64,000 nucleotides of DNA from Desulfuromonadales bacterium (lineage in GTDB: Bacteria; Desulfobacterota; Desulfuromonadia; Desulfuromonadales; Geopsychrobacteraceae), in contig JAHYIY010000008.1 in assembly GCA_019429255.1 (NCBI GenBank), forward strand, positions 1-64,000, written 5' to 3'. The notes under the pieces were generated by a model. That model was given only the letters and a program-made list of their open reading frames with translations, ran no database searches and was not told the DNA's origin. Both the position numbers and the translations under genes were made by a program. This document shows positions 4,143 to 52,757 of this stretch, piece by piece (position 1 is the stretch's first letter; every line of letters starts with the position of its first letter).

Positions 4143-4657
4143 ATCCGCTGCTGAATATCGCCATTTATCAGCTGATCTGGTTCATTGCGGTGATGGGTGG
4201 GGAATCGCTGGCATGGCTGGCTTTTGTCCTGATTTTTGTGCATTTTCTGCTAACGCCGTTACCAAAAACCGACCTCGTGCTGGCTTTTTTGGTGTTGCTC
4301 ATTGGTATGGTGGTCGACGGGACCTTGCGCCAGTCGGGTTTTTTCATCTTTGCCGAAGATCGCTTTCCGATCCCCTTGTGGCTGGGATGTATCTGGATCG
4401 CCCTGGCGACATTGTTCAATCACAGTCTTCACTGGTTGAAAAAACGGCTGGTTCCGGCCGGACTGCTGGGCGCGATTGGCGGACCGCTTGCTTATCTCGC
4501 CGGTGTGCGGTTTGGCGTGGCTGAGTTCAGTTGGTCATTGCCCTGGTCGATTACTGTATTGGCGATCGTCTGGGGGGTGCTGGTGCCGGGTTTGGTTTGG
4601 CTGAGCGGGAAGATTGTGATTGCCGGAGATCGGCCGTTGTGGGTGTTGCTGAGATGA
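4139..4657 (+). CDS. DUF2878 domain-containing membrane protein
   Basis: Small multi-TM protein (NIAIYQLIWFIAVMGGESLAWLAF) immediately following the cfa-like gene with overlapping start. Confidence 0.8.
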   Translation: MNPLLNIAIYQLIWFIAVMGGESLAWLAFVLIFVHFLLTPLPKTDLVLAFLVLLIGMVVDGTLRQSGFFIFAEDRFPIPLWLGCIWIALATLFNHSLHWLKKRLVPAGLLGAIGGPLAYLAGVRFGVAEFSWSLPWSITVLAIVWGVLVPGLVWLSGKIVIAGDRPLWVLLR

Positions 4658-4677
4658 GAAGTGGCTGCTGTGTGTTT

Positions 4678-4726
4678 GACCACCCCGTCAGGCTGCGCCT
4701 GTCACCCCTCCGGAGGAGGGGAATTT
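4678..4726 (+). repeat. DUF559-associated palindromic element R1
   Basis: gaccaccccgtcaggctgcgcctgtcacccctccggaggaggggaattt; internal hairpins caggc-tgc-gcctg and cccctcc-ggaggagggg. Confidence 0.85.
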
Positions 4727-4820
4727 GTCGCTTGCTGTTCCCTCGGGTTTGCGGTTTGTCGACTGTTTTGGCAGATGCTGCTGTTCTTCAATGAAAAACA
4801 AATTTATCGTCTGTCAGTTA

Positions 4821-5450
4821 TTAATTCCCCTCCTCCGGAGGGGTGGCGCGAAGCGACGGGGTGGTCCTCAAGGCCTCCATCACTGCATCTAAATTCTGTA
4901 AAACATCTTTCGCCCTGATATGCAATACACGCAATCCAAGTCCTTCCAAATAGGCATCACGTTCTTGATCGTATTCTGCTTTGTCTTCATGGCTACTGCC
5001 ATCGATTTCAATGACCAACGACGCGCCGGCACAGAAAAAATCCACGATATAGTTACCAATAATTTTTTGCCGGTCAAAATCAAGTCCAAGTAACTGTTTC
5101 TTTTTTAAATGTTGCCACAGTAATACTTCGTGTAGCATTCCTGCCTTGCGGAGTTCACGAGCTCGTTCGCGAAGTGCAGGATTGTAGGGAAGAGACTTGT
5201 ATGACTTGGTGTTGCGTTTGACCACCCCGTCAGGCTGCGCCTGCCACCCCTCCGGAGGAGGGGAACTGGTATCCTCGTTTTTAGAGGTCGTTTGCTTCTC
5301 CTGTTGCTTTCTACCAAGCCTGCTCATGAGCCCTCCAGTAGTAAAATCTGTCCCCTGAAGATAAAAAAACGAAGAGGAAGTTAAATTCCCCTCCTTTGGA
5401 GGGGTGGCGCGAAGCGACGGGGTGGTTAGATCCTCCATCATTACACCCAA
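4821..5450 (-). CDS. DUF559 domain-containing (Vsr-like PD-(D/E)XK) endonuclease; N-terminus, interior and C-terminus partly encoded by palindromic repeats
   Basis: Core YNPALRERARELRKAGMLHEVLLWQHLKKKQLLGLDFDRQKIIGNYIVDFFCAGASLVIEIDGSSHEDKAEYDQERDAYLEGLGLRVLHI is DUF559-like; the flanking TPSLRATPPKEGN / SPPPEGWQAQPDGVVK peptides are translations of the repeats, so the true start is uncertain. Confidence 0.85.
   Translation of the reverse strand: MGVMMEDLTTPSLRATPPKEGNLTSSSFFYLQGTDFTTGGLMSRLGRKQQEKQTTSKNEDTSSPPPEGWQAQPDGVVKRNTKSYKSLPYNPALRERARELRKAGMLHEVLLWQHLKKKQLLGLDFDRQKIIGNYIVDFFCAGASLVIEIDGSSHEDKAEYDQERDAYLEGLGLRVLHIRAKDVLQNLDAVMEALRTTPSLRATPPEEGN
4822..4865 (-). repeat. DUF559-associated palindromic element R2 (inverted relative to R1)
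   Basis: aattcccctcctccggaggggtggcgcgaagcgacggggtggtc; reverse complement matches R1 except for the hairpin core. Confidence 0.85.
5220..5266 (+). repeat. DUF559-associated palindromic element R3
   Basis: gaccaccccgtcaggctgcgcctgccacccctccggaggaggggaac. Confidence 0.85.
5384..5427 (-). repeat. DUF559-associated palindromic element R4 (inverted relative to R3)
   Basis: aattcccctcctttggaggggtggcgcgaagcgacggggtggtt. Confidence 0.85.
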
Positions 5451-5461
5451 TTTACATCAAA

Positions 5462-50300: not shown

Positions 50301-50512
50301 TGCAGTTGGATGCGCACATTGGCCAGCAGGGCTTCCGGGGTGCTTAAATTGCGCAGGTATTCATAACCCTGATGTTCCAGATCGCTGATAAACTCCCGCT
50401 CCAGATCGTATTCGCTCTGATAGCTTTCAGCAACCTGCCATTCCCTCGTATACCTTTCGAGGACGATAAAACGGTTGGTTTCGGCGATGGGTTTGTAATC
50501 AGTCATTTTCAT
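47375..50512 (-). CDS. hsdR: Type I restriction endonuclease subunit R
   Basis: [44 protein letters not shown]; start overlaps RAYT stop. Confidence 0.96.
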
Positions 50513-51144
50513 CCTTGTTCAGGGTGCAATTGAACCTGCTGCCAGCGAAGAGGATTGTCGTTAATGTAGTGTTGAATGCGGTTTAAGTCATCCTCATTAC
50601 GCACAATATGCTCGTAATAATTGCGTTGCCATAAGCGTTTATGAAAGGGTTGCCAATGATGATGTTTGACACCATCAATATACGCATTGGTGGTCATGGT
50701 TTTAAACCATTGCACAACCCGTGGTAGGGGCGAACCTGCGTGTTCGCCCTGGTTCACCCGTATTTCGTTTCGTAGGGGCGAACCTGTGTGTTCGCCCATG
50801 TTTGAATTGCCGTCACCATTCGGGCAGACATTGTAGGGGCAGACACATAGGTCTGCCCCTACAGCGCCTACGTTGATTACGATAAAATGGACATGGTTGG
50901 GCATACAGATAAAATTGCCGCATTGTATATCCGGGAATTTCTGTTCCAATTCCCAATACCATCGTTCAATCATGTGACCGGCATCATTTAAACCCATGAT
51001 CCCATCGACGATATCGCCAAACAGACATTCACCATTTTGGGTGGAGATGGTCACAAAATACGCCCCACATTGGGCATAGTCATACCCACGCAATCGTATT
51101 GATCGACGATGATGAATTTCAGGATTAAATGACATTTTATTCAT
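50509..51144 (-). CDS. REP-associated tyrosine transposase-like protein (RAYT, HUH/Y1), with repeat-derived insert
   Basis: [36 protein letters not shown] motif [40 protein letters not shown]; interior [27 protein letters not shown] is encoded by palindromes. Confidence 0.9.
50724..50863. repeat. BIME-like palindrome cluster inside the RAYT coding sequence
   Basis: ggggcgaacctgcgtgttcgccc; taggggcgaacctgtgtgttcgccca; gtaggggcagac-acatag-gtctgcccctac (12-bp perfect stem). Confidence 0.88.
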
Positions 51145-51150
51145 CGTGTA

Positions 51151-51245
51151 TCGTAGGGGCGAACCTGCGTGTTCGCCCTGGTTTGAATTGCCGTCACCAT
51201 TCGGGCAAACCCCATTCGGGCAGACACATAGGTCTGCCCCTACGA
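51151..51245. repeat. BIME-like element, copy 1 (two attcgggca units)
   Basis: tcgtaggggcgaacctgcgtgttcgccctggtttgaattgccgtcaccattcgggcaaaccccattcgggcagacacataggtctgcccctacga. Confidence 0.9.
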
Positions 51246-51330
51246 TGGTCGTCCCGTTTCATCCGTTTTCGTGAATCAACCATTCGGGTGGCACGCGTCC
51301 GATTCCCCGCCCAATGTTCCGTTTTTCGTT

Positions 51331-51485
51331 TCGTAGGGGCGAACCTGCGTGTTCGCCCTGGTTTGAATTGCCGTCACCATTCGGGCAAACCCCATTCGGG
51401 CAAACCCCATTCGGGCAAACCCCATTCGGGCAAACCCCATTCGGGCAAACCCCATTCGGGCAGACACATAGGTCTGCCCCTACGA
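51331..51485. repeat. BIME-like element, copy 2 with 15-bp tandem array (six attcgggca units)
   Basis: Same ends as copy 1; ccattcgggcaaacc repeated in tandem at 51378-51462. Confidence 0.92.
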
Positions 51486-52757
51486 TGGTCTGGGGAAATT
51501 CAACAATTGATCCCGATAATATTCGTATTGCTTCCGGCGCAACGCAATTTCGCGGGGCAAGCCTTCGCTGATGGAAGTTGTGAGGGTGTCGAATTTGTCG
51601 AGAATGGCGACGATCTGTTCTTTTCTCTCTGGTGAGGGGTTCGGAATCGGAATGCTCTCTAAATTCTTTTTATTCAGCTTTGGTTGGGCTGCGCCCGATA
51701 TGTATGGAATCAAGTCAATACTGTTCAGATAATACTCAACATATCTTCGCTCGGCATAGGTATCAAACTTAAGGACGTGAGCATGATTGTTAACCCACGT
51801 CTTCCCGCTGATACTGAACGCTATAGGCGTATTGCGAGCCAATAAATTTGCACCATCTTCAGAAACGAGTAGAAAGTCCCCATCGAAAATGTAGTCTTTT
51901 ACATAATCGACAATGCCAGATGCCCCGTAATAAGGAATACTCCCTTGTTGCCTTAAGCCGCTTTTGATTGGCTTTCTTCTAGAATCGAGATTTTCTGCCA
52001 TTTCCCCCAGCGTCTTCCACTCCACTTCCCGACCACCCCGCCCTTCGGGCACCCCTCCAGAGGAGGGGAATTCAAAACTCAACAACTGGTCACGATAGTA
52101 GTGGTACTGCTTTTTCCGCATGGTCAGCTCGGCGGTCAGCTCGGCGGTCAGCTCGGTAAATGCGTCCAGAATGCGAACGATTTCACCCTGGATCTGAAGG
52201 GATTTTTGCGGGTTTTCGGGGCATGGGATGGGGATTTTTATCTTGGCCATGTCTGTGGCTGACACATCAATGACCTTGGTGCCCTTGGCATACTTCCTTT
52301 TTTCGGAGGCGAATTCGCTCGTCTGAGTAAAATAGGCAAAGTACTTTCCGAGTATGCATCTACCCGGTCTGAATATGGTTGCATGACCACCTGTAACGGC
52401 TTGACGCTCACCGAGATAGACCAGCGCTTTGCCTACGTCTTCAAGGTTCTCGCTGGTATTTGTAATTACAACATCCCCATTATCAACCTTGCGCAACTGC
52501 TTGGCCAGATCAGGGGAAACAAACGATTTAGTCGTGGTTGCAGATAAGCCGTAATACGTATAAATCTGTCCATAATGAATGGCAGGTACGCCATCCTCAA
52601 CGAAGTCTTTTTTTTGGAGGCCGTTACCGCGAACCAGCTGGCCAACTTCCCCCAACGCCTTCCACTCCACCGCAACCCCATCCAGCAGCTTTACCAGAAA
52701 GTCTGGTATTCGCTGAGATTCACATTCGTGTTTATTCGTGTTCATTCGTGGTTCCAA
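51480..52757 (-). CDS. hsdS: Type I restriction-modification specificity subunit S
   Basis: Two TRD-type halves with conserved RKKQYHYYRDQLLSF / RRKQYEYYRDQLLNF; TELTAELTAELT linker. Start is TTG 52757 or ATG 52745. Confidence 0.93.
   Translation of the reverse strand: MEPRMNTNKHECESQRIPDFLVKLLDGVAVEWKALGEVGQLVRGNGLQKKDFVEDGVPAIHYGQIYTYYGLSATTTKSFVSPDLAKQLRKVDNGDVVITNTSENLEDVGKALVYLGERQAVTGGHATIFRPGRCILGKYFAYFTQTSEFASEKRKYAKGTKVIDVSATDMAKIKIPIPCPENPQKSLQIQGEIVRILDAFTELTAELTAELTMRKKQYHYYRDQLLSFEFPSSGGVPEGRGGREVEWKTLGEMAENLDSRRKPIKSGLRQQGSIPYYGASGIVDYVKDYIFDGDFLLVSEDGANLLARNTPIAFSISGKTWVNNHAHVLKFDTYAERRYVEYYLNSIDLIPYISGAAQPKLNKKNLESIPIPNPSPERKEQIVAILDKFDTLTTSISEGLPREIALRRKQYEYYRDQLLNFPRPS
52031..52072 (+). 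repeat. DUF559-associated palindromic element R5, in frame inside hsdS
   Basis: gaccaccccgcccttcgggcacccctccagaggaggggaatt; same flanks as R1-R4 with a gccc-ttc-gggc core. Confidence 0.85.
52124..52159 (-). repeat. 12-bp tandem repeat encoding TAEL units in hsdS
   Basis: gtcagctcggcg gtcagctcggcg gtcagctcggta. Confidence 0.9.

Follow-up and report, generated by a model that had tools for sequence, protein, structure and literature searches.

DUF559 nuclease genes bracketed by putative BoxC-type triplex repeats: a candidate mobile unit

Why should a small nuclease gene of the DUF559 family stand between two inverted pairs of a palindromic element, and do the gene and the repeats belong together? 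The window, by which we mean the whole stretch of 64,000 nucleotides that was analysed, contains such a locus (Table 1). The initial annotation gave the order R1(-), R2(+), DUF559, R3(-), R4(+), two inverted pairs of a ~45-bp palindrome, and its coordinates are correct. The DUF559 core does lie between R2 and R3, R2 does supply the last codons before the stop, and translation returns the same peptides for R3 and R4. The palindrome arms are 91–100% complementary over 23–24 nt. The direct copies are closely alike, R1 and R3 being 93% and R2 and R4 95% identical, and since R1 and R3 are of one subtype and R2 and R4 of another, the inverted pair on either side of the gene joins two subtypes. R2 encodes the final codons TPSLRATPPEEGN together with the TAA stop, R3 and R4 are translated as SPPPEGWQAQPDGVVK and TPSLRATPPKEGN, and GTG codons in the tail of R3 are possible alternative starts of the gene. 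Beyond that annotation, R1–R4 all fit a three-strand 'intrastrand triplex' rule, a solo copy of the repeat is found in hsdS, and R4 is followed by a remnant of another DUF559 gene. The remnant translates as LGVMMEDL, as compared to LDAVMEAL in the intact gene, hinting at a former tandem copy at this locus. Extra DUF559 fragments near the gene were found at 3 of 139 loci, in a search too strict for the 22-nt remnant of the window itself, and tandem remnants may therefore not be a general feature.

Table 1. Positions in the window of the DUF559 locus, its repeats and related features.
Feature	Position	Strand	Basis
R1, triplex-type palindrome, subtype with mini-hairpin CAGGCTGCGCCTG	4679-4725	minus	repeat search and triplex rule
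R2, triplex-type palindrome, subtype with mini-hairpin GCGAAGC	4823-4865	plus	repeat search and triplex rule
R3, subtype of R1, within the open frame upstream of the DUF559 domain	5221-5265	minus	repeat search and triplex rule
R4, subtype of R2	5384-5426	plus	repeat search and triplex rule
DUF559 nuclease gene	4821-5327	minus	168 aa from ATG at 5327; PF04480
DUF559 domain	4869-5174	minus	Pfam E 3.7e-32; within the R2-R3 gap 4866-5220
Single open frame	4821-5450	minus	ORF list
27-bp remnant of another DUF559 3' end, following R4	5427-5453	minus	direct repeat D4, 77% over 22 nt
Stretch that congeners G203 and G101 lack at the orthologous site	4640-5455		BLAST of window against L226 and L227; edges approximate
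Y1_Tnp (RAYT-like) gene, between hsdR and hsdS	50509-51144	minus	E 7.8e-6
Solo repeat copy, in frame inside hsdS	52032-52072	minus	core-pattern match, sequence, ORF 51480-52757 minus

The alignment of the DUF559 family has invariant E, D, ExDG, H and D residues, and the family profile finds PDB 3hrl as well as I-Bth0305I, a homing endonuclease. A predicted model (pLDDT 82) matches 3hrl, I-Bth0305I and Vsr in its fold; the match to 3r3p has an E value of 4.8e-4 by sequence and 2.6e-4 by fold, and Vsr (1cw0) is matched with a probability of 1.00. Together with the invariant residues of EDxHD type this bears out the Vsr-like fold assigned earlier, and the window protein is thus predicted to be a Vsr/EDxHD-type nuclease with the corresponding active-site pattern. 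By both profile and fold the nearest characterised relative is the EDxHD homing endonuclease I-Bth0305I, an intron-borne enzyme whose selfish mobility is established. The DUF559 proteins share fold and active-site pattern with this enzyme and with Vsr, but they are free-standing, ~110–170 aa long, have no intron, intein or long DNA-binding domain, and are situated between multicopy palindromes. A Caulobacter DUF559 protein triggers a DNA damage response in vivo when the cytosine methyltransferase is absent (PMC12907096), so members of the family can act on DNA in vivo.

The repeats vary in sequence between DUF559 loci and have one plan throughout, a C-rich arm, a short loop, a G-rich arm and a mirrored second G-rich stretch. 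The triplex rule, with mismatches allowed, recovers R1–R4, and at 122 of 138 loci it finds elements next to the gene, in 87 on both sides. Such elements are 22-fold denser beside DUF559 than in more distant DNA, and the third arm points toward the gene in 167 of the 204 nearest ones. R1–R4 consist, consecutively, of the pyrimidine arm, complementary purine arm and mirrored purine arm of BoxC/TM, and judged from their sequence the repeats beside DUF559 appear to be the published BoxC/PIT/TM intrastrand-triplex motif. Triplex formation in vitro was demonstrated for the E. coli sequence (PMC4666352), and R1–R4 are putative triplex formers by their sequence. Besides the arms, intergenic copies and inverted pairs joining two subtypes are common to both, and BoxC/PIT/TM is likewise polymorphic between E. 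coli strains and widespread in bacteria. In the published survey (Holder et al. 2015, PMC4666352) the motif was reported with neither an enzyme nor a partner gene; the difference is that at the present loci the repeats enclose a DUF559 gene, and clade-specific versions, among them that of the window, are added to the motif. A CCCCGTC match had suggested that R1–R4 were CGTC REPs, which are defined by a CGTC tag, an 8–9 bp stem starting with AT and a CCA tail (PMC3733652). This was rejected, as R1–R4 have neither the AT-starting stem nor the CCA tail. CGTC REPs and the Rickettsia palindromic elements (PMC3733652) do resemble them in being small palindromes that are sometimes found inside genes.

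The bracketing is not particular to the window. The 300 bp to the left were aligned locally with the reverse complement of the 300 bp to the right, and the best alignment served as flank score, with a threshold of at least 14 and other positions in the same DNA as controls. A flanking inverted repeat was present by this measure at 48 of 57 DUF559 loci of the window's class (3 of 1579 control positions) and, in a set drawn from many phyla, at 55 of 79 (14 of 1359), while 9 and 24 loci, respectively, fell below the threshold. ParE toxin genes, used as a gene-anchored control, gave 0 of 30 by the same statistic. DUF559 genes are consequently far nearer to such repeats than other positions and other genes are, as had been anticipated, and the association is near certain. 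Many of the loci come from draft or metagenome assemblies, so that chance or an assembly artefact could be thought to produce the pattern, but with the low control rates, and the same features in complete genomes and thousands of complete E. coli chromosomes, this has practically no probability. The distribution of DUF559 is patchy, with 0–11 copies per genome, and matches in plasmid and phage collections were few and distant.

The repeats also occur away from the gene. An early search in the window's own genome with a 34-nt R2 pattern matched only R2 and R4 and was read as 'no solo copies', a negative caused by the long pattern. It was overturned by the shorter core pattern CCCCTCCNNNGGAGGGGTG, which with at most one mismatch found the four R copies and six other places, one of them within the window, so the dispersed solo copies that the initial annotation expected do exist. 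The copy within the window lies in an hsdS frame (Methylase_S, Pfam E 2.2e-35). Genomes of Chryseobacterium and Flavobacterium that carry related DUF559 genes have 9 to 34 matches to the same pattern, and the reversed control pattern had zero matches in the same genomes. Solo inverted pairs were observed in both orientations, 13 with tails out and 28 with tails in, and a single orientation of the dimers was not found. Of 121 genomes with a strong DUF559 match, 63 have at least five copies of the class-wide palindrome pattern, CYCTCCCN5GGGAGRG, as compared to 9 of 112 without such a match, and the excess holds within families (0 of 5000 within-family permutations). Solo repeats are accordingly not equally common without the gene, with G099 and, among the matches listed, E. 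coli as exceptions. G099 is a near-complete genome with 63 class-wide palindromes and no DUF559, and two other genomes without a DUF559 match, G040 and G084, are also rich in palindromes (23 and 13). In these genomes DUF559 may have been lost, a divergent relative may have been missed, or there may be another mobiliser. Old repeat copies can evidently outlive the gene.

A comparison of DUF559 protein similarity with repeat similarity over 115 loci gave a Mantel Spearman correlation of 0.37 (0 of 300 permutations), and between the two locus collections it was 0.34 (0 of 500). Repeat families thus covary with DUF559 clades, another of the earlier expectations. The window protein is 36–46% identical to proteins of its own class and 61–69% to proteins from Melioribacteraceae, Nitrospinota, a MAG and an IMG/VR contig. 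R1–R4 resemble the repeats of those closer relatives and of Bacteroidota, and not the repeats of their own class. As relatedness of the hosts does not confound this case, the gene and its repeats have most likely travelled together. It was also possible to observe an empty site in close relatives, as the annotation had foreseen. In the congeners G203 and G101 both neighbour genes are present with a short intergenic stretch between them, which holds no element and no pre-existing repeat; divergence of the intergenic DNA blurs the edges of the site.

At 12 of 148 loci, mostly on draft or metagenome contigs, the DUF559 domain lies within an open frame of at least 300 aa. The host Pfam domains sharing the frame are a class I tRNA synthetase in a Rickettsiales genome, which we take to be of the valyl type, a GHMP kinase, presumably IspE, an M14 peptidase, HsdM, HsdS and a methylase. 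The in-frame repeats are stop-free and would be translated as Pro/Gly-rich linkers in one frame, and for this reason units can settle in frame in protein genes. DUF559 with repeat peptides in frame was seen in the host proteins of L175, L164, L156, L113, L103, L104, L068, L029 and L169; the divergent DUF559 copies of L113 and L156 seem to occupy one and the same site in one host gene. Units or repeats of the window type recur in or beside restriction-modification genes (hsdS, hsdR and methylases; L103, L104, L182 and the window's 51480-52757), which are perhaps a preferred landing place for them.

The main rival to a mobile unit is homing, where the repeats are target sites spread by other means, and a selfish gene cuts solo repeats and recombines into them via its repeat-bearing flanks. 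The kinship with I-Bth0305I fits such a history, and so does the position of the window gene between two direct copies of the inverted pair, which is expected if the pair is the empty target. Against it, the empty sites of the two congeners have no pre-existing repeat, the repeat type tracks the DUF559 clade across phyla, units are also present in frame in unrelated genes, and the spread of the repeats themselves is left unexplained. We regard homing as rather improbable. Still less probable, to our minds, is a cellular repair nuclease of Vsr type beside which the repeats act as terminators, expression controls or insertion hot spots, or are simply neighbours in repeat-rich islands. The Vsr-like fold and the mismatch repair role proposed for the Caulobacter DUF559 protein VsrA (PMC12907096) agree with this. 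Inverted copies on both sides of the gene, clade covariation and the local enrichment do not, and the patchy copy number and the in-frame units in unrelated genes are unlike a fixed repair gene.

The initial annotation saw a counterpart of RAYT/REP in the locus, which is true of architecture and dispersal but not of enzyme and tag. In RAYT (TnpA-REP)/REP/BIME systems, of the GTAG superfamily, a single gene is flanked by inverted palindromes, and there are solo copies and inverted dimers, some in coding frames; at DUF559, too, the flanking inverted palindromes recur as dispersed solo copies. However, the gene between R2 and R3 is PF04480 with its Vsr/EDxHD fold, unrelated to the Y1/HUH tyrosine transposase, which is not present there, the GTAG tag at the palindrome end is absent from R1–R4, and these have a third, mirrored G-rich arm. 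As transposase and tag are both missing, the DUF559 unit is not a member of RAYT/REP. An ordinary RAYT/REP locus does occur in the window, a Y1_Tnp gene whose surroundings (50724-51490) have GTAG-tagged palindromes GTAGGGGCGAACCTGCGTGTTCGCCC, and whose repeats, GTAGGGGCG...CGCCC, are unrelated in sequence to R1–R4. Because the GTAG palindromes are unlike R1–R4, the genome harbours both kinds of system, each with repeats of its own. RAYTs have been proposed to move GTAG REPs (PMC3733652), and with such a gene in the window the DUF559 unit could be conceived as moved in trans by a RAYT or IS transposase, DUF559 being a passenger. But this RAYT-like gene has repeats of its own, the repeat type follows DUF559, and transposase or integrase remnants were never found at E. 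coli BoxC sites (Holder et al., PMC4666352), which makes trans-mobilisation highly unlikely.

A joint mobile unit of DUF559 gene and repeats is very likely. We consider it probable, if far from settled, that the gene and its palindromic ends are one such unit, with the nuclease most likely acting on the ends and the solo repeats being non-autonomous derivatives. The palindromes would be the ends of the unit, with the third arm mostly turned toward the gene, and each end could fold on one strand into a hairpin plus a third strand. The nuclease would most likely recognise the end, possibly in its folded form, and nick or cut the DNA there or at a target, after which host repair would help to copy or insert the unit or its ends. 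The solo elements and inverted pairs at other places of the genome would have arisen from the unit, and the stop-free linkers would allow it to settle within protein genes. The annotation had proposed an autonomous element with non-autonomous repeats; bracketing, solo copies, abundance, empty site and clade covariation support this, and from them we infer movement by the nuclease, which is the simplest account of the repeat spread. DUF559 is a strong candidate for what spreads BoxC-type repeats. If this is true, an enzyme of unrelated fold follows the RAYT/REP principle, and one source of plasticity in genomes, and of insertions that keep the frame of housekeeping genes, would be explained. 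In the literature searched, subscription papers and preprints being mostly outside the search, the link between DUF559 and the repeats was not found. It suggests a role both for a widespread nuclease family of 'unknown function' and for the BoxC repeats of E. coli, which have long lacked an explanation.

E. coli K-12, with ycjD as a single gene and, according to Holder et al. 2015 (PMC4666352), 23 copies of the motif, allows a direct test of the link. YcjD is a named DUF559 protein in NCBIfam PRK09767 and in the E. coli annotation. Much as in the window, its neighbourhood holds a BoxC element, a second, degenerate copy and a remnant 3' end of ycjD. In 3334 of 5426 E. coli genomes the sapF-ycjD-fabI query block is covered to 80% or more, and others have the eef operon at that place, as published (PMC12817139). 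BoxC abundance showed no clear difference between genomes with and without ycjD among the matches listed. Between pstB and pstA some genomes have a BoxC copy that others lack; the 92-bp indel is edged by an 8-bp direct repeat and may be a gain or a loss. In the search for a target duplication of constant length, the other four of the five BoxC loci compared, ypfG-tkt, zntA-tusA, cpxA-yiiM and yjdP-phnP, were not clean, which leaves pst as the one clean indel. The lack of a consistent duplication, the DUF559 loci with a flank score below the threshold, the palindromes without DUF559 in G099, the similar BoxC abundance with and without ycjD among the E. coli matches listed and the two orientations of solo pairs speak against the mobile-unit reading. 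The BoxC-pair locus cpxA-yiiM (L366) is covered to at least 80% in one place in only 156 of the 5426 genomes, and most have an ordinary REP-type stretch instead.

More tentatively, and with somewhat less than even confidence, these units may be an unrecognised, transposase-free class of mobile DNA in many phyla, in which a small Vsr/EDxHD nuclease mobilises triplex-forming ends, seeds BoxC-type repeats and settles in frame even in essential genes with the repeats as linkers, and some GIY-YIG genes may do likewise with CGTC-like repeats. CGTC REPs are said to have no dedicated transposase (PMC3733652). They differ from R1–R4 in their tag, stem and tail, and some GIY-YIG genes, not DUF559, adjoin such repeats. 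The best-scoring GIY-YIG genes were tried as a second positive and rejected for that subset, with a flanking inverted repeat at 1 of 30 by the same flank statistic. Several lower-scoring stand-alone GIY-YIG genes do carry flanking repeats, with palindromes of the CGTC or the CTTCGACTNCGCTCAG type (L225/L318, L313, L314, L316, L317, L319, L321, L326 and L257). This may be a second case of a nuclease paired with repeats, and such genes are candidate partners of the CGTC REPs. L225/L318 belongs to the congener G004, where a GIY-YIG gene with other palindromes adjoins the ortholog of the window's right-hand neighbour gene.
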